64,000 nucleotides of DNA from a bacterium (GCA_021158465.1 JAGGUN010000037.1:91156-155155); one strand, 5' to 3'. Counted from the first letter of the stretch, positions 11,355 through 50,227 are shown. Notes: a model not told the origin generated them from the letters alone. Translations and numbers: made by a program.

Positions 11355-12110
11355 CTATTCTCCGGTAATTTGTTCTTCTGTCATACCGAAGCGCCGTTGT
11401 CTCCTTGAGTAGCTTCTTATTGCTTGCAGGAGTTCTTCTTCTGTGAAATCGGGCCAGAGTGTTGGGGTGAAGAAGAGTTCGGAATATGCTCCCTGATACA
11501 GGAGAAAATTGCTCAGTCGCATCTCTCCGCTTGTGCGGATGATAAGGTCTGGGTCAGGGATATCCTTTGTATAAAGGTATTTTTTGAACTGTTCGGTATC
11601 AATTTTTCTTATGTTTTCGGTGTTTTCGCTGGCGAGTTTCTTCGCAGCCTCGAGTATCTCTTCTCTACCGCTGTAGTTCAGTGCTAGGATGAGCGTCAGT
11701 CCGGTGTTGTTTTTGAGGCGGTTGATAGTGTACAAGAGCGCCTTTCTTTGTGCGAGTGGTAGCCCTTCGATGTTGCCGATTACTAACAATCGAACATTGT
11801 TCTTTTCCAGTTCTGCAGCCTCTTTTAGGGCGGATTCTCTCAGCAGCCTCATAAGCTCTTTCACCTCATATCTTGGGCGGCGCCAGTTCTCTTTTGAGAA
11901 GGTATAGAGTGTCAGATATTTCAATCCTATTTTTCCCGCAAATCGGACGATCCTTTTGACCGTTTTCACACCCTCTTTATGTCCCTCGGTTCTGGGGAGG
12001 TTGTGTCTTTTTGCCCAGCGCCCGTTGCCGTCCATTATGATGGCGATATGAACGGGAAGGTTTTTTATCGAACGGGCTTCTTCCGCGAGGGCATCAAGCT
12101 CTTTTTTCAT
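11355..12110 (-). CDS. uppS: undecaprenyl diphosphate synthase
   Basis: A 251-residue cis-prenyltransferase that makes the C55 lipid carrier for peptidoglycan and glycan export. The substrate motif HIAIIMDGNGRWAK with LPRTEGHKEG lies at about residues 21-45. The later LTLYTFSKENWRRP, LNYSGREEI and DLIIRTSGEMRLSNFLLYQ are all family signatures. The start overlaps the 3' end of the diguanylate cyclase gene by 17 bases. Confidence 0.96.
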   Translation of the reverse strand: MKKELDALAEEARSIKNLPVHIAIIMDGNGRWAKRHNLPRTEGHKEGVKTVKRIVRFAGKIGLKYLTLYTFSKENWRRPRYEVKELMRLLRESALKEAAELEKNNVRLLVIGNIEGLPLAQRKALLYTINRLKNNTGLTLILALNYSGREEILEAAKKLASENTENIRKIDTEQFKKYLYTKDIPDPDLIIRTSGEMRLSNFLLYQGAYSELFFTPTLWPDFTEEELLQAIRSYSRRQRRFGMTEEQITGE

Positions 12111-20471: not shown

Positions 20472-20485
20472 GTTTATAGATTTAA

Positions 20486-20558
20486 GCGGGCGTAACTCAG
20501 TTGGCAGAGTGCTGGCTTCCCAAGCCAGTTGTCGCGGGTTCGATTCCCGTCGCCCGCT
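20486..20558 (+). tRNA. tRNA-Gly (anticodon CCC)
   Basis: A complete cloverleaf of 73 bases. The acceptor stem is GCGGGCG/CGCCCGC and the D stem ACTC/GAGT. The anticodon stem is CTGGC/GCCAG around loop TTCCCAA, so the anticodon is CCC and reads GGG. The T arm is GCGGG-TTCGATT-CCCGT with one G-T pair. The discriminator base is T and the 3' CCA is not encoded. It ends only 4 bases before the stop codon of the opposite-strand OmpA-type gene. Confidence 0.95.
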
Positions 20559-20562
20559 TCTT

Positions 20563-23340
20563 TTATTTCCCGACAAACTCTATCTCAACACGTCTGTTGG
20601 CTATCCTGCCTGCCGGGGTTCTGTTATCACCGTAGAGAATTTCGGTAAGATTTTCTCCCTGCCATCTGTTGATATGATATGGCTTGCTGTCGCTGTATCC
20701 TTTCGGGATAATCTGTGTCCTGTGAGCGGTGAGGAAATCGTTTAGGTCTTTTGTCCCTTTGAGATTCTCATACAGTATGAAGTATCGCTTGAGGTTATTC
20801 AGCTGTTCTTCGGCTCGTCTTTGTGATAATCTCTCGTTTCCGGCTTTCACCCCGACATTATCCGTATGCCCGGCGACGATTACCTTCTTCGGTGAGTCTG
20901 TTCTCTCTATCCTTGCGAGTATCCTCTTTGCCATCCTCTGGAGGCGTGCATCGTTGTATTCTGCCTCACTCTTTGTTCCCCCAAAGATAAACTGCACGAG
21001 TATAAACCGCTCGCTCAATTCCTCACGGTTTTTTACCTCCACATGGAGGGCTTCTGTTGTATCTGCCGCTGTCTGTCCTGCCTCGTCGGTAGCGCTCAGG
21101 ATGGCGAAATAGGTTCGCTCGGGGTCGGCAAAACTCCCATCAGGTAGTTTCCAGTCCCAGGAAAGCCTTTCTTTGAGCCTCTTTCCGCTTGCAAGCTTGA
21201 GAATGCTGTGTCCCTGGTCGTCTATTATCGTCACGGTAAATTTTTCTGGTTTCAGTTCGCCTTTGAATTTTGTATGGAAGCTGACACGGTTGAACTCCGG
21301 GTCGACCTCGAAATCTTTGTGCAGTTTTTTCCTCTTTGGGGGGTTGTAGAATATCCCGTCGGCAGTTAGCTTAAGTGATATGTTGAGCGGTTCCTCGATT
21401 GTTCTTTCCCCTCTTATGTAAGCTCTTCTTGCAATCTCTTCAGGAAGGCTCTTGCGGAACTCCTCTGCAAAGAAGAGTAACGAATCCACAAGATCGATCG
21501 TTGGATAGTTTCCTCTTGCTGTTATCTCCAGTTCGATGTCTGGATTCCGTGAGAATATGTTGGATAGCTCGTCCAGCTTATCCTCTGTGAGTGGTGGGAC
21601 GAGGGTAATCTCTGGTGGCAGGAGTGTTAGTTCCACCCTTCGATTTTCCTCTGCCACAAGATGCTTGCCCCTTCTTGTTCCTTCGAAGTCCTGCTTCTCG
21701 ACGCGCCTTTCCCACGGCTTGTATGACGATATGTCCGCAACGGTTATCTGGTCTTCTATCTTTGGGAATTGCTCGACAAACTTCTTCCGGACGAATTCTG
21801 CGCGTCTGTATGCCAGTTTCTCGCCCTCTGCCTTATCTCTGATGCTATCACCTATGGTATCGTAGAAGCCTGTAATCAGGAGTTTTACATCGGGGTTTCT
21901 TGCGAGTCGTTCACCTATAATCTTGATAGTCCTTTCCGAGTGGTCTATCTGTGTGTCCTCTGGCGGTGGGAGTAGTAGCGCCTTTCTGCTCTGAAAGAAC
22001 AAGAGCGGGACAATCGGCTCATCCTCGATGATTGAGGCGACCTGTGTCAGCTTCAGAACGGGCTTTTCTGCCGTGATCGAGACAGTTGGTCTCGGGTATA
22101 TGTGGAATCTCGCTGTCTTTGAGTTGTCGTCTTTGTATATCTCAAGATTCTCATTATTCGGGTCTGCTGTGGCGGTCAGTTCTATGTCGCCTGAATTTTC
22201 TGGCACAAACTCAAACTTGTGGATTTTCTTTTCTCCCTCTTTCAGCCCATGGAGCCTCTCTTTTATCGCTGTATCAGGGAGTGAAAGCTCTATCTCGAAT
22301 GCGCCTATATCCTTTTTCCCGTTATTCTCGAGTGTTATCTCAAGCGGCACAGGTTGTCCGGTTATCGGTTTGTCGGATTTTGCCTTGATGTCGACGATTT
22401 TTATGTTTGGGTATTGAGGGAGCGGTTTTCTGAACCGGTATCCGATGCTTATCCTGTGTGTTGTTCCTATTGAGAACGGGATTATGAGGCTATATTCGAC
22501 GAATATTCCTCCTTTCTCCCTTGCCGTAAAGTATGTTGCTCCTATCCCGCCGAATAGCCTGTTTACTCCGCCTCTGGCTACAAGTTTGCTATCTAAGAAG
22601 TATGCTTCTATCCCAGCTGCGGGGTTTATCCGCTCATCCACCGGTAGGTTGGGGTCGTTTGAGTACTCGATATTTGTGTATATTCTTGCCAAGTCGCGTA
22701 TATCGAAGCTTGCGCCGAGATTAGCTTCGAGAGGGACGGGGCTTTTCTCCTCATCGGATAGCGCTATACTTGGCTGGTTAGCATCCTTTAAGAATGCTCC
22801 GATACAGAGATTTCTCTTCCTGAAGATTACCCCGAGGTCGAATGAGAATACCCCTTTTGAATAGCCGTATTCCAAGAACAGCGGGTCGTCTGGGTTTTCC
22901 AGGCGGAACTTCTCCTTGATATAGTCCTCCATAAGGTATTTTATTCTCACTCCGGCAAATGTTCCCCATCGGGCTTCGTCTGCCTCAATTGTTTTCGGTG
23001 AAAGTAGCCTCGTCGATGCGGAGAGAGAGAATGTCTTTTCCTGTTGCATTTCATTCCCAAGAAGGCAGAAGGATGCTCCGATGGAGTGTGGGAAGAGATG
23101 GAAGAACCCGCCGACACTCTGCTGGTAGATATCTGTTTTTGCTCCCAGGTACAGCCTGCTGTAGTCTATGATAACAAAGCTCCTCTTTGCTGGTCCCATA
23201 CCTGCTGGGTTGTAGAAGGCTGACGAATAGTCCCAGCTTGCTCCTACCGATGAGTTTCCGAGTGAGCTTTTGCCGGAAAACCCTATCTGCCCGCAAAGTG
23301 GTGTAGGCAAAAGGAATAGAATAAGAATGAGCCTTCTCAT
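20563..23340 (-). CDS. outer-membrane barrel / multi-OmpA-domain protein of the PilM-PilN-like operon
   Basis: A 925-residue secreted protein. A signal peptide (to about residue 17) precedes a region (about 18-305) with the PorV/PorP-like start GFSGKSSLGNSSVGASWDYSSAFYNPAGM, read in parts, and many barrel strands. A CARDB-like Ig segment (about 312-410) is followed by an OmpA-like domain (about 440-585, ending ENRRVELTL). A second, degenerate OmpA-like stretch comes next (about 585-665). A FlgD-like Ig segment (about 695-775) and a clear C-terminal OmpA domain (about 785-925) end the protein. The last carries GHTDNVG, the LSQRRA helix and NRRVEIEF, which bind peptidoglycan in the family. It is last in an operon after PilM- and PilN/PilO-like genes, which suggests it anchors that complex to the cell wall and outer membrane. 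Confidence 0.88.
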   Translation of the reverse strand: MRRLILILFLLPTPLCGQIGFSGKSSLGNSSVGASWDYSSAFYNPAGMGPAKRSFVIIDYSRLYLGAKTDIYQQSVGGFFHLFPHSIGASFCLLGNEMQQEKTFSLSASTRLLSPKTIEADEARWGTFAGVRIKYLMEDYIKEKFRLENPDDPLFLEYGYSKGVFSFDLGVIFRKRNLCIGAFLKDANQPSIALSDEEKSPVPLEANLGASFDIRDLARIYTNIEYSNDPNLPVDERINPAAGIEAYFLDSKLVARGGVNRLFGGIGATYFTAREKGGIFVEYSLIIPFSIGTTHRISIGYRFRKPLPQYPNIKIVDIKAKSDKPITGQPVPLEITLENNGKKDIGAFEIELSLPDTAIKERLHGLKEGEKKIHKFEFVPENSGDIELTATADPNNENLEIYKDDNSKTARFHIYPRPTVSITAEKPVLKLTQVASIIEDEPIVPLLFFQSRKALLLPPPEDTQIDHSERTIKIIGERLARNPDVKLLITGFYDTIGDSIRDKAEGEKLAYRRAEFVRKKFVEQFPKIEDQITVADISSYKPWERRVEKQDFEGTRRGKHLVAEENRRVELTLLPPEITLVPPLTEDKLDELSNIFSRNPDIELEITARGNYPTIDLVDSLLFFAEEFRKSLPEEIARRAYIRGERTIEEPLNISLKLTADGIFYNPPKRKKLHKDFEVDPEFNRVSFHTKFKGELKPEKFTVTIIDDQGHSILKLASGKRLKERLSWDWKLPDGSFADPERTYFAILSATDEAGQTAADTTEALHVEVKNREELSERFILVQFIFGGTKSEAEYNDARLQRMAKRILARIERTDSPKKVIVAGHTDNVGVKAGNERLSQRRAEEQLNNLKRYFILYENLKGTKDLNDFLTAHRTQIIPKGYSDSKPYHINRWQGENLTEILYGDNRTPAGRIANRRVEIEFVGK

Positions 23341-23342
23341 GA

Positions 23343-24221
23343 CTACACAGAGTACACGGCGAGGCTGATGGTGAAGCTAAAACCTCCTACTACCTTTTCT
23401 ATTCCGAACCCTTCTACCTCGATGAGTTTCTCGCTCCTGTTGAGTTCTCTGATGAACTGGATGATTGCATTGGGCTTTCCAGTTCCGCGGATGACGAACG
23501 AGAGTTTCTTCCCCAACGGGGTTTTTTCCTCCTTGTATTTGGGGAATGAAAGGAGATCGACACCAAGTCTTTTTGCCTCTTCTATGATAGATTGGGTAAA
23601 GTTGTCGATGAGGTATTCCGGCACCACTCCATCTTGGAGGACTACGGTGCTTGGAACCTCGTATAGCGGTGCAATCCGCTTCGAAATAAGGACAAACTCT
23701 GTTCCTGTTCTTCTTCTCTTCTCCACGAGGGGTGAAAAGGGTAGTCCTTTCAGGTAACCACCTGTTGTGTCTGTGGTTGAGCCTTCGATATACAGTGCGG
23801 GTGCTTCTATATTGAAACACAGCCGATTAAAGGGCAGCGGGATGCTATCCAGGACCTGGAGGTATCCTAAGAGTGCAGCTCTTCTTTCATACAGGGTTTT
23901 GATTGGAGAACTGCTCGCCTCTGGTGGTTTGGTGGCGACTGGAGTGGGTGTAACCTGCGCTGTGGTCTCCACAGGGATGGTGGTTGTTTCCACGGGTGCA
24001 GCTGGAACCCGTGTTGTTGTATCAGCTTTTGCAACCTCTTCCTTTTCTGGTTTCTTCGACTCTTCTTTTATCTTTGGTGCAAGGAGGTATAATCCACCGA
24101 ATAGCGCCATTACCGCAGCCACGGGGATAATCAGGTATATTGGTTTAAACGGCAGTTCCTTTTTCGGTTTTGGGGTTTCGGGTGGTGGTGTCCAGAGGTT
24201 GAATTTGATGATGTCGGTCAT
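23343..24221 (-). CDS. PilN/PilO-like inner-membrane protein
   Basis: A 292-residue protein. Residues 4-12 read IIKFNLWTP, resembling the INLLP motif by which PilN docks into PilM. A single membrane helix lies at about 28-48, then a Thr/Pro/Val-rich periplasmic linker (60-106), then a helix from about 107. The C-terminal part (about 195-292), with FVIRGTGKPNAIIQFIREL and IEVEGFGIE, resembles the ferredoxin-like domain of PilO/GspM. PilN and PilO are normally two proteins, so this looks like a single merged form. I chose ATG 24221 because GAGGG lies upstream and its ATG overlaps the upstream TGA stop (ATGA). A longer reading from 24260 has no support. Confidence 0.75.
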   Translation of the reverse strand: MTDIIKFNLWTPPPETPKPKKELPFKPIYLIIPVAAVMALFGGLYLLAPKIKEESKKPEKEEVAKADTTTRVPAAPVETTTIPVETTAQVTPTPVATKPPEASSSPIKTLYERRAALLGYLQVLDSIPLPFNRLCFNIEAPALYIEGSTTDTTGGYLKGLPFSPLVEKRRRTGTEFVLISKRIAPLYEVPSTVVLQDGVVPEYLIDNFTQSIIEEAKRLGVDLLSFPKYKEEKTPLGKKLSFVIRGTGKPNAIIQFIRELNRSEKLIEVEGFGIEKVVGGFSFTISLAVYSV

Positions 24222-25153
24222 ACAGTTCCCTCGATTGCGAGTCCGACAGGGACAAGCCATTCGTCGATATCGTTCTCCTCGTATCCCACCTGTTTTGCAA
24301 CATGGCTAAGGTCCACCAGTGGAATGTTTATTGCAGCAGAGAGCAGTTTTCCGAACTGTGATGTTGCACCGACCTTTCCGGTTACAAGAAGCCCCTCGAA
24401 CTTGTGCTTGGTTGGGGAGAATCCGAGGCTCTTTGTGATAACGGTAAAGACCGGCAAGAACCCCTGAAGATAATCGTTGTTGCTGGTGGTTTTGATGAAG
24501 AAATGCCCGATGTATTTGAATCTCCCGTCGATCACAACAGAGACCGATGTGAACTGCTCGTCTATTACCATCATTAGAAGGTTTTTTGAATATTTCCTGT
24601 TGAAATAGGTAAATGCGTTATGCATGGCGATGGCGGATGGCTCAACGCCTTTTGGGGATACCCCTGCAAGTCTGAGCAGTTCTATTCTCTGGGATATGAT
24701 CTTCTTTGGGACTGCTGCTCCGTAGATGGATTTATCGTTTATCGAGAACCAAGAGACCGCATACTGCTCCACAGGTTTTATAAGGTAGTGCGATAGCTCC
24801 CAGTTCATCCAGTCAGGGACGATTTCTGGCAGTTCTGGTGGGATAGCAAACTCCTTTATGACGGTGAACTGGTCTGGGATATTAACATATCCTGCGGATG
24901 TCTTTATTCCTGCTCGGGTTATGAGGTCCATCGTGTAATCGCCAAGCTGTTCTGCTCTCGTAACGATTCCCCTGTGGAGCATACCGCTTGAGAATTCTCC
25001 TCGAACCCTATTCAAGAGCAGGATCTCTTCCATAGTAAAACCAAGCTCTACAACCTTCACTACATTCTCGAATAGGGCAATGCCGAGTGTTCTGTTCCTT
25101 ATCTTTCCTGCTGCTTTTTTCTGCTTTGTTCCGCTGGCAACGGTTTTTTTCAT
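24218..25153 (-). CDS. PilM-like (actin-fold) cytoplasmic protein
   Basis: A 311-residue protein of the PilM/GspL actin-like superfamily. After a basic N-terminal tail, RTLGIALFENVVKVVELG occupies the place of the phosphate-1 motif but lacks the usual Asp and GSS. LLMMVIDEQFTSVSVVIDGR corresponds to phosphate-2, and LLVTGKVGATSQFGKLL to the adenosine segment with its GGG reduced. VEPSAIAMHNAF and the final VPVGLAIEG are also PilM-like. The worn motifs suggest it may bind nucleotide weakly or not at all. I chose ATG 25153, just after the upstream stop, over an earlier in-frame codon at 25258. PilM normally recruits PilN at the inner membrane, and a PilN-like gene follows with a 4-base overlap. 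Confidence 0.8.
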   Translation of the reverse strand: MKKTVASGTKQKKAAGKIRNRTLGIALFENVVKVVELGFTMEEILLLNRVRGEFSSGMLHRGIVTRAEQLGDYTMDLITRAGIKTSAGYVNIPDQFTVIKEFAIPPELPEIVPDWMNWELSHYLIKPVEQYAVSWFSINDKSIYGAAVPKKIISQRIELLRLAGVSPKGVEPSAIAMHNAFTYFNRKYSKNLLMMVIDEQFTSVSVVIDGRFKYIGHFFIKTTSNNDYLQGFLPVFTVITKSLGFSPTKHKFEGLLVTGKVGATSQFGKLLSAAINIPLVDLSHVAKQVGYEENDIDEWLVPVGLAIEGTV

Positions 25154-25157
25154 ACCA

Positions 25158-25583
25158 CTATTTTTCCCAGGAGGCTTGTCCGTTGACAATGGCGCCATAC
25201 CCGTTTGGGTCAACGATGACGAAGTATGATGAGTCTCTGGCAAATATAATAAATTCACTACTATCCTTTGGGGAGACAGGGTGGAACCCCTCCGGCAGGA
25301 ACGGTTTCAACGAATCAAAACTTGTGGTGTAGAGGTGTGGATGAACAGCTGGCTGTGTTGCTTTTGCCTCTCCTGTTGTGTCTGCTTCGCTTGGCGGAAC
25401 GCCTCCAGTAGAGAAGTACCTTAGCTCAGCCTCGGATAAGAGTTTCATTCTCTCTCGGGTCTCTTTCTCCAAGAACTCTTTTCTCTCCTGGCGTGCCTTT
25501 GGGATGAGAAGTGCTGCGATAACTCCTATACCCAGAACAATTATCAGGGCATCGAGCAGAACAGATTGGAACTTCTGGGACAT
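25158..25583 (-). CDS. pilin-like single-pass membrane protein without prepilin motif
   Basis: A 141-residue protein, first of the PilM-like operon. Its helix (about 9-27, LLDALIIVLGIGVIAALLIPKARQ) followed by ERKEFLEKETRERMKLLSEAELRYF resembles the long N-terminal helix of type IV pseudopilins. However, there is no G/A-FTLIE peptidase site, so it should remain a bitopic membrane protein. The C-terminal 60 residues form a small strand-rich domain ending in FVIVDPNGYGAIVNG, the kind of ending seen in small pseudopilin domains. AAAGGAGG lies a few bases before the ATG. It could be a pseudopilin relative or a PilP-like partner; the family is not certain. Confidence 0.75.
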   Translation of the reverse strand: MSQKFQSVLLDALIIVLGIGVIAALLIPKARQERKEFLEKETRERMKLLSEAELRYFSTGGVPPSEADTTGEAKATQPAVHPHLYTTSFDSLKPFLPEGFHPVSPKDSSEFIIFARDSSYFVIVDPNGYGAIVNGQASWEK

Positions 25584-25657: not shown

Positions 25658-25685
25658 ATAAAAACTCTATTTGCTGGATATTGTA

Positions 25686-25714
25686 TTGACTTTCGGTGAT
25701 GATTTTTTTATTAT
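25686..25714 (+). promoter_or_regulatory. sigma70-like promoter for the transglutaminase-like gene
   Basis: TTGACT (25686-25691), a 17-base spacer and TATTAT (25709-25714) lie about 37 bases before ATG 25752, with a GGAGGTGG ribosome site between. Confidence 0.6.
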
Positions 25715-25751
25715 TAAACTGCGTTACTATAAAAAGCTGGAGGTGGTAGAT

Positions 25752-27944
25752 ATGTGGCGTATATTTTTAGTCTTTGCTTTGGTCGTTCTGAGTTCGCCGG
25801 TTTTTGCCAGGGATGGGGTAACGATAAGGGAATTTCCTCCGCTTGTTTCTGTGGAGAGGGAACCTGTTTTTTGCGCTTATGAGCCGGAGAGGGCAATTTA
25901 TCCTGATGTGTTTTATGAGCCTCTTCGCTGGGAGCTTGTGGACACGGTATCTGCTCACATCATTGTTCCTCCTGGTTCGACATACTCTATTCTTGCTGAT
26001 GTTTGGGATAAGTCGCTCACTGAGTATTTGCCTGAACCGTATCTGACAGATTCTGCTCGAAGTGCGATAGAGCATTCTCCTGGCTGGCTTCGGCAAGATT
26101 TGGTAATCACATTCTCACGAATGAACGAGATATTTCAGGATATGTTTGCTGAGGTTATCCTTGAGGCTGATTCGCCGTATGTGGATGAGGTTGCTTTTTC
26201 TGTTGCGAGGATGCCAGCTGAGATCCTCTCCTGTAGTTATCTTTCCCCGGGGCTTCTTCTTGAGAACGCACAGGATATTTACTATCAGGCGAGCCTGCTC
26301 AGCTATGTTGAGCTGGTTGAGTATGGTGATTATACCACTGCTCGGTATCGCGTAGCTTCTGATGGCGACACATCCTGGGTCGAGATTCCGAGGGATATCT
26401 ACTACTGGTATGTTGTTCATCCGAAGATAACCGATGAGACGCCTATGTATCTTGACAGGTTTGTCTCGCTTGCCAGTGACCCGTTTGCGGGTTACAATGA
26501 GCCTCCGTTTGGTGCCTGGTGGCGGAGTTTTCTCTGGAGTGAGTCGGATGCGGGTTATTCACCCCTGTGTGAGTATCTTGATACGATAGATGTCCTGTGG
26601 GCGGGGCTATACAATACGATTGATGGTAATGGCGCGGTTGGGGCGGTCACGCAGTTTGTTCAGGATGTTCTCGAGTTTGATTCCGGGATGGAGAGACCTC
26701 ATCAGCCGTTGAGGATATATACGCTTCATATGGGTCGCTGTGGCGAGCATGAGGATTTCACAGTTGCTGCGGCGAGGACCGCTCTCATTCCGAGCCGGGG
26801 GGCGGAGGCGATCTCCACAGACCATGTCTGGAACGAATTCTATGATGGTTTTGGCTGGCATCAGTGGGAGCCTGTCAACACCTATATTGATGATTACTTC
26901 GTGTATGAGGACCGCTGGGGCAAGGTGTTTGCCTCTGTCTATGCTCCTCGCTCGGACGGATACACGGAGAATGTAACATACAATTATTCCCATGATACCT
27001 GTGATATAAAGGTGTATGTTTTGGACGGAGCGGGTCGACGTGTTGACGGAGCAGATGTTATACTTGCTGCTGAGTACGATGACCATTTATATTTTGATAC
27101 TTGGGGCACCACAGCCTCGAGTGGTGTTACCATTTTCAGGCTTGGGGCAGGTGTCAGGATGTATGGGCGGGTTGAGCACCCGATAGGTAGCTATCCTACC
27201 AGTCCATCGACCGTTGCGCCTCTTCTTTCTGGTCCGGGTTCAGACGGGCGAACATACACGAGGACGATGAACATCTCATCTGGTAGGATGCCGTATCTAT
27301 ATTACACAGAGGCTGAGCTGCCCGACACCGCCTGGGGTATGATGAAGCTTGTGGTGGACTATTCTGTTCCATATGAGAAGGTTCTTGGAACATCCTTCTT
27401 TGATGATGTCGATGATGCGATGTATATCCAAAAGGTCGATTCTGGTTCTATCTATTTGTTTGTTCTCGATGAAGCGAACTACTCGCTCTGTCTTGCTGGC
27501 GAGCCTTTTGAGGCATACTTTGCCGAGCCGGAGGCAGATTCAGGAAGCTTTGAGTTTGTCTTTCCGAGAGAGGAGAACGTATATCTTGTTCTTTCCAACT
27601 ATCCGAGGATGCGGACATACGAGGCGATCGATTTGGATGTCAAACTGTTCGATGGAGTATCTGAGATTGCAGAGTCTTCTACTTCTCATCCGAGAGTGGT
27701 TTCCATCTCTCCTGCTTATCCTAACCCGTTCAATGCAAAGACAAGTTTCAACTATAGCATAGGAGGTTCATCTGGCAGGCTCAGGATATACAGTCTTGCG
27801 GGTGAGTGTGTGTTTGACTGCGGGATAATCGGACCTGTTGGTAGGTTCACCTGGGATGCCGGTGGGTTCCCTTCGGGGGTTTATTTTGCTTCTGTGACGG
27901 ACGGGGAAAGGTCTGCCACCACACGCCTCCTCCTTTTGAAGTGA
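25752..27944 (+). CDS. secreted transglutaminase-like protein with C-terminal sorting domain
   Basis: A 730-residue protein with signal peptide MWRIFLVFALVVLSSPVFA. A transglutaminase-like core lies at about 320-380: Cys330 in GRCGEHEDF, His358 in DHVWNEFYDG and, where the third catalytic residue (usually Asp) is expected, Glu373 in WHQWEPVN. A carboxypeptidase-regulatory or Ig-like segment (about 415-500) follows. The last 80 residues carry PAYPNPFNAKTSF, a 'RIYSLAGECV' strand and PSGVYFAS, which is the FlgD-like/type IX C-terminal domain. It is probably displayed or secreted at the surface, where it could be a peptidase or crosslinker. Start ATG 25752 was chosen for its ribosome site and signal peptide. 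Confidence 0.87.
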   Translation: MWRIFLVFALVVLSSPVFARDGVTIREFPPLVSVEREPVFCAYEPERAIYPDVFYEPLRWELVDTVSAHIIVPPGSTYSILADVWDKSLTEYLPEPYLTDSARSAIEHSPGWLRQDLVITFSRMNEIFQDMFAEVILEADSPYVDEVAFSVARMPAEILSCSYLSPGLLLENAQDIYYQASLLSYVELVEYGDYTTARYRVASDGDTSWVEIPRDIYYWYVVHPKITDETPMYLDRFVSLASDPFAGYNEPPFGAWWRSFLWSESDAGYSPLCEYLDTIDVLWAGLYNTIDGNGAVGAVTQFVQDVLEFDSGMERPHQPLRIYTLHMGRCGEHEDFTVAAARTALIPSRGAEAISTDHVWNEFYDGFGWHQWEPVNTYIDDYFVYEDRWGKVFASVYAPRSDGYTENVTYNYSHDTCDIKVYVLDGAGRRVDGADVILAAEYDDHLYFDTWGTTASSGVTIFRLGAGVRMYGRVEHPIGSYPTSPSTVAPLLSGPGSDGRTYTRTMNISSGRMPYLYYTEAELPDTAWGMMKLVVDYSVPYEKVLGTSFFDDVDDAMYIQKVDSGSIYLFVLDEANYSLCLAGEPFEAYFAEPEADSGSFEFVFPREENVYLVLSNYPRMRTYEAIDLDVKLFDGVSEIAESSTSHPRVVSISPAYPNPFNAKTSFNYSIGGSSGRLRIYSLAGECVFDCGIIGPVGRFTWDAGGFPSGVYFASVTDGERSATTRLLLLK

Positions 27945-42411: not shown

Positions 42412-43902
42412 CTATTTTACAAACAGCAGTTTTCCCGTCTTTGAGTAAGGCCCCATATTGACCCTGTAAAGGTATATTCCTGTAGGCAGACCGTTGAACT
42501 CCACTATCACGCTGTTCTCTCCTGGTGTGATTCTATCCATATGGATTGTCCTTATCCTCTTGCCGCTTGCGCTATACAGTTCGATGTTTCCTGTAGCGGG
42601 TATGTTTCCGTTATGAATAAACCGGATTTTGGTCTTGGAGTTGAACGGGTTGGGGGAGTTTGGCAGGAGCAGGAGCATATTGTTAACCATACTCAGAAGA
42701 GCTTGCCGGACATAGAGTGTGTGTCCCGTTTCTACGGTATCTGCTCCGTCGCAGAAGCGGAAGAAGTATTCAAATGTCTCTTCCGGTGCTGGCACTTCTC
42801 TCTCAAACATTGCACCGTCGGAGAAATTATGATCTGTTGATGCCAAGTTGTAAACATTTTCTCCTATAACGAGCTGCCTGACGGTTGGAAAGTTGTTGTC
42901 AGCGTCGGTATATGTGATATAAAACCTGCAGGGGATTTCCTCTTCGTCCTTTGTTGGTAGGACATCGAACCCTCCGCCTGCGAGAGTGGGCGCTGTGTTT
43001 GAAAACGGTATGGATAGGTAGTGTGTCCTCGGGTAGAGCTTTGCAGGCAGTGTTGTGTCAACTGTAACCTGTTCACTCAGGGTTGCACTCACTGTATAGC
43101 CGCCGACATCAAGATATCCGAAGCTATTTGGCCAAGCGCCGAAATCAGGGTCGGAAGTGAGGTCCGACCAATGTCCTCTCATATAGAGATACTGTCCTGA
43201 GGTCTCGGCATCGATGTCACCTATATTTTCTACAGTGGATGGCGGGGTTATCTTGCTAATGCCAGTTGATAAAAATCCTGGTACATTCGCATAAACGAAT
43301 GCGTAGGCGCACTCTGTCTCCGACGCCGGATTGTGCACATACACCGCCCAGATATAAAACGGTCCAAATAGTCCACCGCTAAATTCCCAGTCTGTTGTTG
43401 CCTGCTTCATCGTGGCATACAGGTACTCATCGGAGTATGTATGCCATACCTCGAGTATATCTAATTTCTCTGGATAGCCGCTCACTCCGTCGCCTGACGG
43501 GTCATCTGCTGTCTGTACCTGAACATCGAAGGACGGAGTCCATGAGTCTGTTGTATTCTTCGGTGCTTCAGTTGCTATGTGACCTGATGTGGTTGTTACC
43601 TTGTGGTAGTAGTATACTGAGGATGAGAGGGTTGCGCTTCCCCAGTATGTGTTTTCCATCTCCAATATGGGTGAGAGTGGCACGGTTGTTCCCATTGGTC
43701 CAGATATACTGTTTCCGTATCTGAGCGTTGCAGACCCAATCGATACGGTGCTCTCCGGCTGTGCAACATCTATAAAGAAGGAGACTGCTCCATCTGTTCC
43801 CTGAGCTGAGTGTGTCGGATACAGAACAAGAGGTGGACTCTGACAGAAGGCTGTTCCTACCAATGTCAACAGAAATAAGAAGAGTGCTCCTATCCTTTTC
43901 AT
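42412..43902 (-). CDS. secreted protein with C-terminal type IX sorting domain
   Basis: A 496-residue protein with signal peptide MKRIGALFLFLLTLVGTAFC. The middle is strand-rich with Ig-like repeats and no enzyme motif I recognise. Segments such as DAPEETFEYFFRFCDGADTVETGH point to adhesin- or carbohydrate-binding-like folds only in a general way. The last 80 residues carry LLPNSPNPFNSKTKIRF, IELYSASGKRI and PTGIYLYRV, the FlgD-like/type IX C-terminal domain. Start ATG 43902 was chosen because GGAGGAG lies just upstream; a longer reading from 43995 runs into the promoter region. Confidence 0.85.
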   Translation of the reverse strand: MKRIGALFLFLLTLVGTAFCQSPPLVLYPTHSAQGTDGAVSFFIDVAQPESTVSIGSATLRYGNSISGPMGTTVPLSPILEMENTYWGSATLSSSVYYYHKVTTTSGHIATEAPKNTTDSWTPSFDVQVQTADDPSGDGVSGYPEKLDILEVWHTYSDEYLYATMKQATTDWEFSGGLFGPFYIWAVYVHNPASETECAYAFVYANVPGFLSTGISKITPPSTVENIGDIDAETSGQYLYMRGHWSDLTSDPDFGAWPNSFGYLDVGGYTVSATLSEQVTVDTTLPAKLYPRTHYLSIPFSNTAPTLAGGGFDVLPTKDEEEIPCRFYITYTDADNNFPTVRQLVIGENVYNLASTDHNFSDGAMFEREVPAPEETFEYFFRFCDGADTVETGHTLYVRQALLSMVNNMLLLLPNSPNPFNSKTKIRFIHNGNIPATGNIELYSASGKRIRTIHMDRITPGENSVIVEFNGLPTGIYLYRVNMGPYSKTGKLLFVK

Positions 43903-43940
43903 ATTCTCCTCCTTGGGTTTGGTGAATTTGTTAAATGATA

Positions 43941-43968
43941 AAGATAGTTTTTCTCTGCTCCAAGTCAA
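43941..43968 (-). promoter_or_regulatory. sigma70-like promoter
   Basis: On the minus strand TTGACT (43968-43963), a 16-base spacer and TATCTT (43946-43941) lie about 40 bases before the start at 43902. It is divergent from the promoter at 44004. Confidence 0.5.
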
Positions 43969-44003
43969 GTTTTTTAAAAAACAGGAGGAGCTCAATAAAG
44001 AAG

Positions 44004-44031
44004 TTGCGGTTTGGTGATTTTCTTTTATATT
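44004..44031 (+). promoter_or_regulatory. sigma70-like promoter
   Basis: TTGCGG (44004-44009), a 16-base spacer and TATATT (44026-44031) lie about 40 bases before ATG 44071, with GGAG in between. Confidence 0.45.
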
Positions 44032-44070
44032 GAAGTGGTGATTGGTGAAGTATAAGTGCTGGAGAGTAGT

Positions 44071-44592
44071 ATGAGAGACCTTTTTGAGCTACTTTCTTAC
44101 CATCTAAAGCGTTACCCTGAGATGGAGGTTCAGGATGTATATAAGCTCCTTTATCAGGGTGCGATTGGTGGAGCTCATATTCTTGATGATAGGTTTTCCG
44201 CTTTTGAGAGTTTCTTGCGGGAATTTGCAACATCTCCGTGCAGAGAGGAGGATGCGGTGATCTATGAGCCGGCTTCTCCGCTCCGGGATATCTTTAGGGT
44301 GCACATTGCCCCGTACAGGAATGCAGGTGGCGTTCCCTACATTCTTTGGAGGGAAATAGTGGAAAGTGCAAGAATTTTTCCTGAGAACAAGGGAAATCTT
44401 CTCTCCTGGTGGTCTGGTTTTCGAGAGTTGGTCAGGATGGGCAGATTGCCGTTTGATATAAAAGAGGTAGAGGAGTTTTCAGCTTACATCAGCAAGAAAG
44501 GCTTTCCTCCTGTTCATCATTCAGGAGTCTTCGTCGAAAAGTACAAGCCGTCTTACAGACTCATCTATTTTGAGTTTATCAAGGATTTGTGA
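44071..44592 (+). CDS. conserved hypothetical cytoplasmic protein
   Basis: A 173-residue soluble protein of unknown function. It has a pattern I have seen in scattered bacterial hypothetical proteins: RYPEMEVQDVYKLLYQGAIGGAHIL near the start, then FRVHIAPYRNAGG and, near the end, KKGFPPVHHSGVF with YRLIYFEF. The paired His in VHHS and the earlier His and Glu residues could form a metal site. There is no signal peptide or membrane helix. It stands alone between two secreted-protein genes on the opposite strand. ATG 44071 was preferred to GTG 44056 because GGAG fits it better. Confidence 0.72.
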   Translation: MRDLFELLSYHLKRYPEMEVQDVYKLLYQGAIGGAHILDDRFSAFESFLREFATSPCREEDAVIYEPASPLRDIFRVHIAPYRNAGGVPYILWREIVESARIFPENKGNLLSWWSGFRELVRMGRLPFDIKEVEEFSAYISKKGFPPVHHSGVFVEKYKPSYRLIYFEFIKDL

Positions 44593-44595
44593 ACC

Positions 44596-46395
44596 TCACC
44601 TCAGATATACTGCTTTGAAGTTTTTCTGGTCCGTATCTGTTCTGATGCGTATTAGGTATGTTCCGGTTGGTATGTTTTGGGTAGGTTTCCAAACGGTATG
44701 ATTTCTCGGTTTCTCTTCTAACCATACCCTCTCTCCAGTTATACTGAATATCTCGATGGAGATGATCTTCTCTTCCGTATAGACATTGAGTTGTGAGTTA
44801 AACGGGTTTGGGAATATCTTTATCCTGTTTTCGGTGGTTTTTTCTTCTATTCCCACCGGGGTTGCCCGGATGAGCATAACGGCATCCGAGACGACAACCT
44901 TTCCCGTTTCTGCTCCCTCATCTGTGACCGTTATGTAGTTCGTGCTGCCAGGGGCAAGTCTGTATCTGCCGAGATATACCCATCTTCTTCCGTTTATCGA
45001 CTGGTTAACATCCAGTGAATCTACCGCGCCATCGGCATAGTGTATTCTATATTTTGCGTTGCTTGCCCTGTTTGCTCCTGAGACATAGTAGGTATAAATG
45101 AGATATTCCCCCTCTTCTGGTATATATGGACACCAGGTGGTTGAATCTCCTTGGTATATTGTCGATGTCCAGTGGTAGTGGTCTTCGTATCCGCTTGAGC
45201 TCTCTGCCCAGCTTCCAAAAAGGGAGAACCCTGGGTCGAGGTCATCGATTATGATGGTATCTATGGGTGGTGCTGGACCGGTGCTGAATGAGTCCTGTAT
45301 TCCCTCCCAGAAATCCGCTCTTCCGCCATCGTATCCGGCAGCCCAGAACCCGACACCGAGAAGTCCTGCTCCGTTCACAAGCCCATATTTGTACGATAGG
45401 GAACGGGCATCATCGAACCATGTCTGGTGGTATGAGTTATAGACGAACCACGGTGATGATGAGTTTACATCCCAGATGTATCCGTAGGTGGCTGTATCCT
45501 CGAGGGCGCGATAATAGAGTACAACATCTCCTGTACCAGTCGTTGTAGCTCCACGTTCGGGTCCTGTGCAGGGCCAGTCAAAGCCGTAAGCTGGGCAACC
45601 AAGGATAAATTTGTTGTTCCTACCGGTTCTGGTGTATTCGCTCACCGTTCGGACAACATCATAGCTTTCTGTTGGGTCGTTGAACGGTGCCACAGGTCCT
45701 GTGGTTGATGCTCCTCCCCAGTGGTAATCGTATCCCATAATAAACAGGGCATCGGCGGCGTCCGCGAGATCAGGTAGCTTGTAACATCCCCGCCAATCGA
45801 TAGCGCCTATTGCAACTGACACCCAACCATCGGCGATATACGCTGTCAGTGAGTCTTTCAGCTCCTCAACCAGCAGGACAAGCGTTGTCGAATCGGCTCC
45901 TGTCGGCATCTCAAGATCTAGGTTCACACCATCTCCATTTCCATCGACGCAGAGCGAGACAATATTACGAACTAGGTTCGTCCTTGCTGAAGGAGAGGAA
46001 AGGAGTGCGTGCACATCGCTTCCGTCCCAGTCGAAGAGTGTGCAGACGAGGTCCACTTTCACATTGTGGGAGTGCGCCTCGGATATGAGTTCCTCCGGTG
46101 GCCACCCATGATTGTAGGATATGTCTCCGGACGAATTCACCGAGACGGAAAAGTAGGCGATGCGGCTCACCAGGTCCCAGCGCGGAAACATATATCCCCA
46201 GCCTGCGACCCAGTACGGATAGTAGAAATATGTTATCTTCTCGAGCTCGGTCCTTTCTGCTTTCACGGAGCGGACAGAAGGATACCCATCCGGGCGTGGT
46301 GGTGGGTTCTCATACTGGAGGTAATGTATCGACTGGCTCAAGAGAAGCCCGCAGGGAAGTAGTACAATCGATAGCCATAGGGCGACCCGTTTCAT
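44596..46395 (-). CDS. secreted GH18-like protein with C-terminal sorting domain
   Basis: A 599-residue protein with signal peptide MKRVALWLSIVLLPCGLLLS. About residues 55-360 have the glycoside hydrolase 18 fold pattern. A strand ends in DGVNLDLEMPTG (about 155-166), which keeps the catalytic Glu of the DxxDxDxE motif. YFSVSVNSSG, FIMGYDYHWGGAS and FWAAGYDGGRADFW also match. It probably cleaves a GlcNAc polymer such as peptidoglycan or chitin. A second strand-rich domain (about 390-510) resembles carbohydrate-binding modules. FPNPFNSQLNVYTEEK and PTGTYLIRIR close the protein as a type IX sorting domain. It follows the 1276-residue protein after a single base, so the two form an operon. Confidence 0.87.
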   Translation of the reverse strand: MKRVALWLSIVLLPCGLLLSQSIHYLQYENPPPRPDGYPSVRSVKAERTELEKITYFYYPYWVAGWGYMFPRWDLVSRIAYFSVSVNSSGDISYNHGWPPEELISEAHSHNVKVDLVCTLFDWDGSDVHALLSSPSARTNLVRNIVSLCVDGNGDGVNLDLEMPTGADSTTLVLLVEELKDSLTAYIADGWVSVAIGAIDWRGCYKLPDLADAADALFIMGYDYHWGGASTTGPVAPFNDPTESYDVVRTVSEYTRTGRNNKFILGCPAYGFDWPCTGPERGATTTGTGDVVLYYRALEDTATYGYIWDVNSSSPWFVYNSYHQTWFDDARSLSYKYGLVNGAGLLGVGFWAAGYDGGRADFWEGIQDSFSTGPAPPIDTIIIDDLDPGFSLFGSWAESSSGYEDHYHWTSTIYQGDSTTWCPYIPEEGEYLIYTYYVSGANRASNAKYRIHYADGAVDSLDVNQSINGRRWVYLGRYRLAPGSTNYITVTDEGAETGKVVVSDAVMLIRATPVGIEEKTTENRIKIFPNPFNSQLNVYTEEKIISIEIFSITGERVWLEEKPRNHTVWKPTQNIPTGTYLIRIRTDTDQKNFKAVYLR

Positions 46396-46396
46396 C

Positions 46397-49300
46397 TTAC
46401 TTGAGGAGGAGCATTCTCCTTGTCGCGCTGTAGTCTTCCGCTTTCATCTGGTAGAAATAGATGCCCGATGGAACAGGGGAACCGCTTTCGTCCTTACCGT
46501 CCCAGCTGACTGAGTGTTTGCCAGCAGGAACCGTCTCGGATATAACTGTTTTGACCCTTCTTCCGAGTATGTTGTAGACGCCAAGCTGGACGAACGCCTC
46601 TTTCGGTGTCTCGAATACGATTTCCGTCTTCAGGTTGAACGGGTTCGGTATGTTTTGCCCGAGCGAGAACCCCTTTGGTATACCAGACAGCTCCCATTTC
46701 AGAACTACCCTATCGGTTGCAGGGACAAACCTCTGAGAGCTCTTCATATCAACTGTCGTTATCCCATCGGAGATGCTCATTCCATCCTCTAACTCGTCAC
46801 TGTTCCAGCGGATTACGACCCCCGGCTCGGTTGGAAGTACCCAGCAGGATGTCTGCTTTACATCCCTTGAGAGGAACACTCCAGGTATGTTGCTTTCGAA
46901 CCCTTGTGATGTTTCACCTGGCACTGCTGGCGGGAGAGGTGTATCGAATCTGTCTATTCCATCGCTGGCTCTCGGATCGACCCCGAAAGAAAGTCTTGTT
47001 TCTCCAACGGTTATCGAGAACAGTCTTTCGGGCAACAGCAGGTTTTCTGTGGTGGTTGCCTTTGCCTCTGCATCTGTTCTGATTGTTAGCCTACCATCGC
47101 CTGAGGCGAGTAGCCAGTATCCATACCCGTTCAGCATCACAGAGGATATCTCGTAGGCGCGGGTCTCACAGTTGAATGAGTAAATGCTGGGTATTGCCAT
47201 TATCCCTTCGGGCTCGAATTCAAACGATGACACAGGAATCCCTGTCTCGGAGAATACTCCACCGATGAGGTTCCAGCCTCTGTGTATCGGTATTTCTATT
47301 TCTTGAACTTCCATTCCGGCCATATCTATCACGGAACTACCCTCGCTTAGCACCCAGTATCCCTTGCCAAGCTCAGCGTGTTCCTTCAGCTCGTATCCAC
47401 CAGTCTCAGGGTTGTACCAGTATCCGTTAGGTGTTGTGAGATTGGTAATCATATCTGCAATCCGTGTCGGAGTTGATGGTAGCACAGGGAACGAGATGAG
47501 GTTCCATCCTGGGCAAAGCTCTTCTGATGTGAACCTCTTGAGTTCGGGTCTGTCGTAGACTATCTCGACAAGTTCATTTAGCCCAAAGCGGTATTCTCTG
47601 TAAAGCTTCATATTGACCCCGCCGATGGTGGCAAGTCCTGGTGGCAGGAGCTCCGGTTCCCACTGGATTACACCATCCGGCTCGCCGACCGTCTGGAGAT
47701 ACCAGGTTATCGGCATCTCGTGAGAGTTCTGGATATCCCGTTGGAGCCTTCGAATGAGCGGGTACCGCGGGTCGAGGATGTCGAAGTATGCGTTCACCGT
47801 TCCCGGCACGGGTGGCAGTTGGACGACATCGAGTCCAGGGTCATACCCTTCTGACGCTCTGCTTGCCGCACCGAATGTAAGAACAGCCTCTGCCTGTCCA
47901 CTGCCTGAGCCTTGAATATGCAGGTCGACCATCCATTCTGGGGTTCCCCAGAGGACGGTGAAAAAGCCATCGACTGGCGCTCCGATAAGCCCACCGTCGT
48001 TGAAGCTTGTGCTGATGAAACGCAAACTTGTGAATGAACCATCTGCTGCCGTCGGATTGACGACGAAAACAATGTAGATAAGCACATTCTCCGAGCCCAC
48101 TGTGCTAGTGGTGGTATATGTCAGTGTAAGGCTACCTTCCGATACTTCGATGTTGGCGTCGTAGTCGCCGGCGTCCGATGCTGTTCCTTCGGTGGCAAGA
48201 CCAATAGGTATGAGAACATCAGGGTTGTAGCCTATGTCAAATTGATAAGTTGTTATCCTATATCCTGCCAGGTTTTCGGTGTATATCGGGATAAGGATCG
48301 TATCTCCCACATATCCGGATGTATCAGGTAAGGAGATATCGATAATATTTAAGGTAAAACTCCAGGTGGTAGGATTTTGGAGCGGGTTTGCGGGACAGTA
48401 CGCAGAGGGCATATCTTTTGCCTCGAGTAGTTCGCAGGTATATGTTTCACCATCCTCGCCTGTTATTCCTGCAACTGCAGGATGGAAGGTAAGTCTTCCC
48501 TCCTCGAATGTTAGAACGCTTCCATCCACGGTGAATGTATCCCCGTTGAAAACAAATATTATCGATGATGTGTCGACCTCCGTTAGGTTATCCGATATAT
48601 CGCAGTAAACATCCGGTAGGACAGTTGTTCCAAGGACTGTGCCGTCCGCTGGATAGAAGTTGTCGGCGACAGGACCGGACAGGTCGACGATGAACATCCC
48701 TGACACTGGTGCTACAAGTGCGCACCCAAGTGTATCGGCGAATGAGTTGAGCGAGTAGTAAACCGTATCACCATCCTCCCAGTTGGCGGATGGTGTGAAT
48801 CTCAGAGTGGAATCTCCAAGTTCGATCTCTGGGGATGTAAGGATGTATCTTTCCCCATTGACCTCGAAGTCGAACTCGAGTATATCAGGCTCGGCATAGT
48901 ATCTCAGTCTCATCTCTATATTCTGATCAGGGCAGGTGGTTCGCTCGCCGTATTCCGGTGTCAAGAGCTCTGCCTCTGGCCTGCCAGGTATTTCCGGGAC
49001 AAATATCGTTCCAGAGATTGTCATCGGCTCGATGTCAGGGGATGTTACCATAACATTTACCGTCAGGTCACCTATTACTTCACCGTTTGGTACAACCCTC
49101 CAGCCGGTAGAGCCTGTGCTTCTTGCTGGAATTGAATATGGAGAGACATGGTGTGTGGCGGTCTCACCAGGAGCAAGCTCCAGCCCTTCGGGTAGGAAGA
49201 TTGTTGCCTCGGTGCTGTCCATAGGTATCCAACTGGTGTTGGTAACAAGGACCGTTACCTCGAACTCCTCATACTCGCATCTCTCTATGGTAACACCTGG

Positions 49301-50227
49301 CGGAATGGCAAGCGATAACGCCCCCTCAGCAACTACATGTCCAAGACCATAGTATGTTGCAACGACCATAGTGTCCCCCGGTGCAAGAGTTCTCGGATAC
49401 CACCAGATAAGAACGGCGGAATCACCGTACGGGCTTGGTGGTACAGGATGATCCCATGCATCTATCCTATAGAAATCTGGCCAGCTCCCGACGGCAAATC
49501 TATCAGGTCGAACAGCATCGTAGGCGTCTAATATCCCCATCGCAATAAGCTGGTCAGGGTCACCGAGAGGAGGAGGACCAGCTGGGTCCTCATAGGCAAA
49601 CCAGAATGCGGGGATACTATCCGGTCCATAGAAATCCTCTGCAACACCAGAGTATCCAAATATCGTCCCGAGCGGTGCAGCATCGTTGTGGTTGATGTCC
49701 GTGTCCATCTCAAGGAGGACGCCTACATCGTGCGGAACATCATCGCGGTTCTCTATGTAATAATGAATAAAGATTGTTCCCGTTGTGTCCTCAGTATACA
49801 CAAGGTAAACAGGCATAACCGTCTGACGGCAGAAAACATTCCTCACTGTCCATCCGCCTGTTATCCTGTTCGAGTCCCCGGAGGCGGGAACGAGAACAAA
49901 AGGTTCTGTCACAGGCAGAAATCCTGTCCATGGAGAGCCAGGGGATGGTGGATTGTTGACATAAAGATAGCCGTCCACATTCAATGTAACCCAGGAACTC
50001 CAAGGGTAGGATGGATATGCGTAAAGAAGCATCCTTCCATCCGCTGTGCCGATGTTGAACTGACCATCCTCCGTGTCCAGCTGGATAGCGACATAGTCAT
50101 TGTTTGTGGAGATAATTACCTTCCCCTCATCATCTGGGGCAAGCGCCGCCTTTCTCGATGCATAACCTGAGGCAAATATAACCACCGGTATAAGGAGAAA
50201 TACGCCCAAAACTAATGTTTTCTTCAT
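46397..50227 (-). CDS. large secreted protein with cohesin domain and C-terminal sorting domain
   Basis: A 1276-residue protein with signal peptide MKKTLVLGVFLLIPVVIFAS. The N-terminal 300 residues contain strand-rich segments without an enzyme motif. Several Ig-like or invasin-like repeats follow (about 315-600). About residues 626-760 form a cohesin-type domain: SLPDTSGYVGDTILIPIYTEN in parts, a YQFDIGYNPDVL strand and YIVFVVNPTA. Then comes a region with two TPTRIADMITNL and WNLIGGVFS-type 'FCPGWNLISFP' repeats. IPNPFNLKTEIVF, LGVYNILGRRV and PSGIYFYQMKAEDYSATRRMLLLK, read in parts, make the type IX C-terminal domain. It is likely a surface or secreted scaffold. No dockerin partner was found in the window. 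Confidence 0.86.
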   Translation of the reverse strand: MKKTLVLGVFLLIPVVIFASGYASRKAALAPDDEGKVIISTNNDYVAIQLDTEDGQFNIGTADGRMLLYAYPSYPWSSWVTLNVDGYLYVNNPPSPGSPWTGFLPVTEPFVLVPASGDSNRITGGWTVRNVFCRQTVMPVYLVYTEDTTGTIFIHYYIENRDDVPHDVGVLLEMDTDINHNDAAPLGTIFGYSGVAEDFYGPDSIPAFWFAYEDPAGPPPLGDPDQLIAMGILDAYDAVRPDRFAVGSWPDFYRIDAWDHPVPPSPYGDSAVLIWWYPRTLAPGDTMVVATYYGLGHVVAEGALSLAIPPGVTIERCEYEEFEVTVLVTNTSWIPMDSTEATIFLPEGLELAPGETATHHVSPYSIPARSTGSTGWRVVPNGEVIGDLTVNVMVTSPDIEPMTISGTIFVPEIPGRPEAELLTPEYGERTTCPDQNIEMRLRYYAEPDILEFDFEVNGERYILTSPEIELGDSTLRFTPSANWEDGDTVYYSLNSFADTLGCALVAPVSGMFIVDLSGPVADNFYPADGTVLGTTVLPDVYCDISDNLTEVDTSSIIFVFNGDTFTVDGSVLTFEEGRLTFHPAVAGITGEDGETYTCELLEAKDMPSAYCPANPLQNPTTWSFTLNIIDISLPDTSGYVGDTILIPIYTENLAGYRITTYQFDIGYNPDVLIPIGLATEGTASDAGDYDANIEVSEGSLTLTYTTTSTVGSENVLIYIVFVVNPTAADGSFTSLRFISTSFNDGGLIGAPVDGFFTVLWGTPEWMVDLHIQGSGSGQAEAVLTFGAASRASEGYDPGLDVVQLPPVPGTVNAYFDILDPRYPLIRRLQRDIQNSHEMPITWYLQTVGEPDGVIQWEPELLPPGLATIGGVNMKLYREYRFGLNELVEIVYDRPELKRFTSEELCPGWNLISFPVLPSTPTRIADMITNLTTPNGYWYNPETGGYELKEHAELGKGYWVLSEGSSVIDMAGMEVQEIEIPIHRGWNLIGGVFSETGIPVSSFEFEPEGIMAIPSIYSFNCETRAYEISSVMLNGYGYWLLASGDGRLTIRTDAEAKATTTENLLLPERLFSITVGETRLSFGVDPRASDGIDRFDTPLPPAVPGETSQGFESNIPGVFLSRDVKQTSCWVLPTEPGVVIRWNSDELEDGMSISDGITTVDMKSSQRFVPATDRVVLKWELSGIPKGFSLGQNIPNPFNLKTEIVFETPKEAFVQLGVYNILGRRVKTVISETVPAGKHSVSWDGKDESGSPVPSGIYFYQMKAEDYSATRRMLLLK

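Follow-up and report, generated by a model that had tools for sequence, protein, structure and literature searches.

A type IV pilus-derived operon with a type IX secretion-class outer-membrane barrel, and its possible link to SprA-type secretion

PilM, PilN and PilO make up the inner-membrane alignment complex of type IVa pili, in which PilN docks to PilM through its N-terminal peptide. A comparable pilus-derived inner-membrane module, GspL-GspM, occurs together with pseudopilins in the type II secretion system (T2SS), where GspL fuses the PilM and PilN parts. ComEA, a membrane-anchored helix-hairpin-helix protein found beside pilin genes, has its established role in DNA uptake during natural transformation. 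The so-called T2SS of the Bacteroidetes may be a separate secretion system derived from type IVa pili (PMC6668835). In the open-licence literature, the type IX secretion system (T9SS) is presented as confined to the Bacteroidota or the FCB group, with GldLM as its motor. In the Bacteroidota, type B cargo is partnered by PorP-like proteins, and the OmpA domain of PorE anchors PorP to the cell wall (PMC9143113); in Flavobacterium the energy-needing step is the extraction of carrier-cargo complexes from SprA, which is powered by GldLM (PMC10994853).

The window, a stretch of 64,000 nucleotides of bacterial DNA, contains on its minus strand a unit of four genes at positions 20563-25583, comprised of gene 1 (25583-25158, 141 aa), gene 2 (25153-24218, 311 aa), gene 3 (24221-23343, 292 aa) and gene 4 (23340-20563, 925 aa). 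The junctions in the 64-kb window measure +4, -4 and +2 bases, in agreement with the first-pass annotation, which had described four co-directional genes with gaps or overlaps of 4 bases or less. For genes 2 and 3, the listed open reading frames open at in-frame starts further upstream than the starts adopted here, which yield this spacing and match the alignments of relatives. The unit is flanked on the gene 4 side by a tRNA-Gly (20485-20560). A divergent neighbour outside the operon (25671..27944, plus strand) encodes a transglutaminase-like secreted protein (Pfam Transglut_core match) whose sorting tail is of T9SS type A (TIGR04183, 28.4 bits, cut-off 23). No gene for a secretin, ATPase, peptidase or platform protein is present in 20563-25583, as had already been recorded for the secretin, motor ATPase and prepilin peptidase.

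Gene 1 (25158..25583) encodes a pseudopilin-like protein with a type IV pilin-type N-terminal helix. Searched as a profile, it hits Geobacter PilA and GspG in their N-terminal helices (E 4e-4 to 2e-3), and no Pfam pilin match was obtained. The prepilin signature consists of Gly(-1), Glu5 and a hydrophobic helix; the alignment of relatives reads KG followed by (I/L)(S/M)LLDVII, with Gly(-1) kept and Asp at position 5, and the window protein has Asp5 and, having lost Gly(-1), a Gln at position -1. Judged from sequence, gene 1 probably encodes a degenerate type IV pseudopilin; the pilin likeness seen at first pass stands, and the label "pilin-like bitopic protein" is corrected accordingly.

The second gene (24218..25153) encodes PilM2, whose family profile matches the PilM structures 3jc8 (E 3.2e-23) and 5eox (E 8.8e-21) and bears out the earlier PilM-like assignment. 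As a single sequence, the window's PilM2 scores E 0.16 against Pfam PilM_2, below the cut-off; this model is matched by 14 of the 15 family members. The GxDxG (phosphate-1-like) motif, present in 13 of 15 canonical PilMs, is found in none of the 15 members of the PilM2 family and in none of four PilMs encoded near SprA in other lineages. Its loss suggests that PilM2 would not use nucleotide in the manner of canonical PilM. In the tree, the PilM2 subfamily is lineage-specific and far from canonical PilM, and at comparable score it was not found in 273 genomes outside the phylum (328-408 bits for its own members, at most 95 for others).

The gene 3 product (23343..24221) combines a cytoplasmic N-terminal peptide, one TM helix (residues 28-54), a Pro/Thr-rich linker and a periplasmic PilO-like domain. 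Its putative PilM-docking peptide MTDIIKFNLWT (24189..24221), so named by analogy with PilN, has a counterpart in 15/15 relatives and includes, at residues 4-10 and ahead of the TM helix, the IIKFNLW motif that had been pointed out previously. In the AlphaFold model (pLDDT 74.5), the ferredoxin-like C-terminal domain (residues 201-292, 23346..23621) superimposes on PilO 2rjz with Z 11.3 and rmsd 1.6 over 92 residues, ahead of PulM, PulL, EpsM and EpsL; at the profile level PilO is the top match, albeit a weak one (E 0.0013). The PilN/PilO-like assignment is therefore sustained, as is the PilO-like C-terminal fold that a structure prediction had been expected to reveal.

The module has in common with PilMNO the PilM fold and profile, the PilN-type N-terminal peptide and the PilO-type periplasmic domain; it differs by having a single protein in place of both PilN and PilO, by the loss of GxDxG, and by an operon without secretin, PilP or motor in a genome with a separate canonical set. 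With the T2SS it shares a pilus-derived inner-membrane module plus pseudopilin, but here it is the PilN and PilO parts that are fused, the operon lacks a secretin, ATPase or platform protein, and the outer-membrane partner is a PorP-class barrel, with SprA in that place in other lineages.

Gene 4 (20563..23340) encodes an outer-membrane protein in which a FadL/PorP/PorV-type barrel (residues 21-306, 22423..23280) is followed by a CARDB domain (residues 307-417, 22090..22422; Z 14.8), a first OmpA/Pal-like domain (residues 443-574, 21619..22014; Pal 4g4w, Z 14.7) and a second OmpA-like domain (about residues 779-925, 20566..21006). The latter has conserved GHTD..G...N..LS..RA and NRRVEI motifs and a Pfam OmpA match at 798-845. 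The Pfam matches to PorP_SprF (PF11751, E 1.7e-7), CARDB (3.1e-10) and OmpA (4.9e-11) are all over cut-off, and the barrel model matches FadL (Z 22.9) and the FadL-type protein that is chain F in the 8gl6/6h3i structures of the T9SS translocon (Z 21); the match to TIGR03519, the PorP family, is below that model's cut-off (E 1.8e-8). The earlier reading as a 925-residue barrel plus OmpA protein is upheld, and the barrel is of the T9SS PorP/PorV carrier class.

Every genome of the phylum encodes at least three members of this barrel-fusion family, among which the operon-type copies form one clade separate from the paralogues (support 100). The paralogues adjoin giant proteins with type-B-like T9SS tails at their C-terminal end; the one such protein tested matched CHU_C over cut-off. 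The full fusion was not found in 273 genomes outside the phylum, nine of which have barrel or OmpA parts only. Compared with PorP/SprF, PorV and PorE of the Bacteroidota, the similarities are the FadL-type PorP-class barrel, the wall-binding OmpA domains, the position of the paralogues beside type-B-like tailed cargo and the presence of SprA in the genome, while the differences are that barrel, OmpA anchor and CARDB are on one chain, that the operon partner is a pilus-derived module, and that GldL and GldM are not detected. The barrel class, the paralogues beside tailed cargo and the PorP/PorE precedent together lend support to a role in secretion.

The phylum of the window's genome is little studied; among genomes that bear a name, "candidate division Zixibacteria bacterium 4484_93" is the closest. 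A PilM-like gene is found in 16 of the 17 genomes of the phylum, including all nine of good quality, and the order pseudopilin-PilM-PilN is kept in all loci read, so the operon is not a chance arrangement. The barrel gene comes next in 11 of the 15 loci that extend far enough and is not downstream of the module in the other four (L039, L041, L044 and L047). The four-gene order first described can accordingly be retained for its first three genes, and no longer as a universal unit. Directly upstream, 14 of 16 operons have a gene for a TM-anchored ComEA-like protein, with HHH_3 over cut-off in L042 and L137 and TIGR00426 over cut-off in L137; all 14 operons from other genera have this gene, and neither of the two from the window's genus does.

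The phylum also encodes T9SS components. Its SprA is genuine (TIGR04189, 689 bits, cut-off 200), SprA_N is found in 14/17 genomes and in 9/9 good ones, and tailed cargo is encoded (TIGR04183, CHU_C and Por_Secre_tail over cut-off). None of the 17 genomes has a GldM or GldL match over cut-off; the GldM model detects G218 and G077. Across the 290 genomes sampled, SprA_N occurs in 86 and GldM in two, with a single genome having both. The lack of GldLM is hence not special to this phylum, as 85 of the 86 SprA-bearing genomes have no GldM match; it holds generally outside the Bacteroidota and may be due to how far the model reaches.

SprA loci taken from 58 genomes outside the phylum place genes of the same kind behind SprA. 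Counting same-strand genes within 7 kb, at loci with at least 2.5 kb of flank, type IV pilus or ComEA genes (ComEA, pilin, PilM, PilB/T/C) lie downstream of SprA in 16/51 loci (the other 35 have none) and upstream in 1/49 (Fisher p 8e-5), and the linked loci span 13 families. Before this final count, linked loci were added to the pilin and PilM profiles; the ComEA and PilB/T/C matches have a further basis. The starting profiles, which drew on the window's phylum and, for ComEA, on one G073 row as well, already matched the linked pilins (3e-20 for that of G073), as well as PilM (2e-21) and ComEA (1e-18 to 1e-40). Weak ComEA matches in proteins of 480-600 aa were left out as NusA-like. ComEA starts either 0-161 or 818-1052 bases past SprA, and the longer interval, which has room for one gene, encodes where read a peptidase M28/glutaminyl-cyclase-like protein; an M28-like gene lies within 3 kb in 22/52 SprA loci.

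Four of these outside loci, with the order SprA-(M28)-ComEA-pilin/PilM, have the counterpart of the window's module. G073 reads SprA-ComEA-pseudopilin-PilM, a 66-aa PilN stub (MIRINFL plus TM helix), RsmD and CoaD; G160 reads SprA-M28-ComEA-PilM-PilN-RsmD, with PilN over the Pfam cut-off; and G169 and G021 read SprA-M28-ComEA-pilin-PilM (the short PilN of G073 and the ComEA of G160 were found by six-frame reading). Five further loci (G076, G117, G282, G255 and G145) join SprA to PilB/PilT and mostly PilC, with ComEA in some. The SprA-linked PilMs fall outside the canonical PilM clade (89/87), and their own grouping is weak, with some long branches. In a quick SprA tree, the phylum's proteins belong to a 17-row clade in which six of the eight rows from other lineages belong to linked loci and a seventh to a truncated contig; the SprA proteins closest to those of the phylum are mostly of the linked kind.

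Within the phylum itself, none of seven SprA loci is linked to the module, SprA being located elsewhere in the genome. LptF/G, divergent beside SprA in 20/49 outside loci, is likewise divergent beside ComEA-pilin-PilM-PilN in five loci of the phylum. From this shared flank, the operon appears to fill the same ancestral slot, from which SprA moved away and in which the barrel was gained. RsmD and CoaD flank these loci as well, and since neither they nor LptF/G need have a functional tie, the adjacency may be inherited gene order. No report of SprA linked to pili or ComEA was found in the open-licence literature.

Taken together, these findings favour a type IV filament-like module with a tie to secretion over a passive scaffold. 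A functional link between the module and SprA secretion is likely; for the fuller reading, an envelope module derived from type IV pili that works with SprA-type (T9SS-like) secretion and exists apart from the ordinary pilus of the cell, we consider the case evenly balanced.

The constant ComEA-like gene outside the window's genus, the HHH_3 and TIGR00426 matches, the established role of ComEA and the presence of ComEC in 13 of the 17 phylum genomes would all suit a DNA-uptake pseudopilus, in which ComEA binds DNA, a short filament of pseudopilin with PilM2 and PilN/O2 pulls, and the barrel is the pore or anchor. This reading is nevertheless unlikely, as the operons of the window's genus lack ComEA and keep the remainder, no ComEC was found in two of the nine good genomes with the module, the barrel belongs to a class of protein carriers, and the ComEA-pilin-PilM block elsewhere accompanies SprA, a protein translocon. 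The ComEA-like protein resembles that of natural transformation in its anchor, its helix-hairpin-helix and its pilin neighbours, and departs from it by standing behind SprA in many lineages and by its absence from the window's operon.

The window's genome (G000; 2.04 Mb, 97.6% complete), which was read in chosen stretches, also encodes a canonical pilus: PilM, PilN, PilO, an AMIN-type protein and PilQ in one row (L013 11119-6576), and PilB, PilT and PilC in a separate row (L005). A single PilB and one secretin, the latter in the pilus locus, were found in the genome. The canonical locus is complete and has its own PilM, PilN and PilO, so that the possibility raised at first pass, of the operon supplying components missing from a pilus locus elsewhere, was rejected. 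The operon could instead form a second, auxiliary alignment complex that assists the ordinary type IV pilus and relies on PilB, PilC and PilQ of this genome and on a divergent minor pilin, as the full canonical gene set and the canonical-looking PilB/T/C of the five SprA-linked loci would allow. We rate this as quite improbable, given a PilM2 that is lineage-specific, distant from canonical PilM and devoid of GxDxG, the usual partnership with a T9SS-class barrel bearing wall anchors, and the SprA linkage; to our knowledge, no pilus uses such a barrel.

The passive scaffold of the first-pass annotation, which would connect the cytoplasm and inner membrane with the wall and outer membrane and have neither pilus nor transport, is very unlikely: its anatomy from the cytoplasm to the wall and outer membrane stands, with an actin fold, a bitopic linker and wall-binding and barrel domains in one operon, but it missed the pseudopilin-like nature of gene 1, the ComEA of relatives, the T9SS class of the barrel and the secretion context of the SprA-linked blocks.

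For a secretion-linked module, the components could be arranged as follows. PilM2 would lie on the cytoplasmic face and hold the N-terminal PilN/O2 peptide; PilN/O2 itself, like the pseudopilin, would cross the inner membrane and periplasm; and the barrel, tied to peptidoglycan, would serve at the outer membrane as a carrier or for docking. PilM2-PilN/O2 and the pseudopilin might then link cytoplasm and periplasm to the SprA/carrier stage by way of force, positioning or cargo handling, with the pilus-like element passing force or position to the pulling of carrier-cargo off SprA, ATP being spent by the genome's single PilB, and ComEA perhaps binding something other than DNA. The step that couples force or position to ATP is the weakest of the proposal, and that the module powers export is a guess.

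More broadly, these findings hint that pilus-like machinery may serve T9SS outside the Bacteroidota. Only tentatively, as a doubtful but possible extension, do we propose that SprA secretion there is both served and powered by a machine derived from type IV pili, comprised of pseudopilin, PilM, PilN/O, a PilB-type ATPase and a ComEA-like periplasmic protein, which would replace the proton-driven GldLM in a hybrid of T9SS and pilus. The disparity between SprA_N and GldM among the sampled genomes raises the question of what drives SprA outside the Bacteroidota, and the ComEA, pseudopilin, PilM/N and PilB/T/C genes found behind SprA in 13 families are a concrete and testable candidate for that driver. 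If this were true, two large families of envelope machines would be joined.

The barrel-CARDB-OmpA protein, the 925-residue product of the operon under study, has paralogues that form a multi-copy family, found at full length only in the phylum of the window, and these paralogues (loci L091, L092 and L093-L103) adjoin giant proteins with type-B-like tails. Three neighbouring genes of the window itself (42412-50227) each carry a T9SS-type tail: one at 42412-43995, one at 44596-46395 whose GH18 product includes a Golvesin_C domain, and one at 46397-50227 that encodes a cohesin-domain protein. The genome of the window also encodes, separate from its pilB/T/C locus, two additional PilT-like ATPases with reading frames of 384 and 362 aa (L002 on contig C31 and L003 on contig C11, respectively).

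Divergent LptF/LptG genes adjoin the gene for the T9SS translocon SprA in 20 of the 49 loci outside the phylum; within the phylum, five loci (L036, L038, L042, L043 and L045) have such divergent genes next to the ComEA-pilin-PilM operon. The complete genome G077 displays a strong match to the motor component GldM (L105; G077:C1:3473543-3475060) and no SprA_N match.

In the SprA operon of L137, PilM is followed by a 66-aa PilN stub (11712-11912) comprised only of a PilM-binding-type peptide and a transmembrane helix. Directly downstream of SprA, two or three tandem PilB-like ATPase genes were found in L184, L196, L199 and L201. A peptidase M28/glutaminyl-cyclase-like gene is located within 3 kb downstream of SprA in 22 of 52 loci (L137, L138, L167, L170 and L187, among others), and its product may be involved in the N-terminal processing of T9SS cargo.
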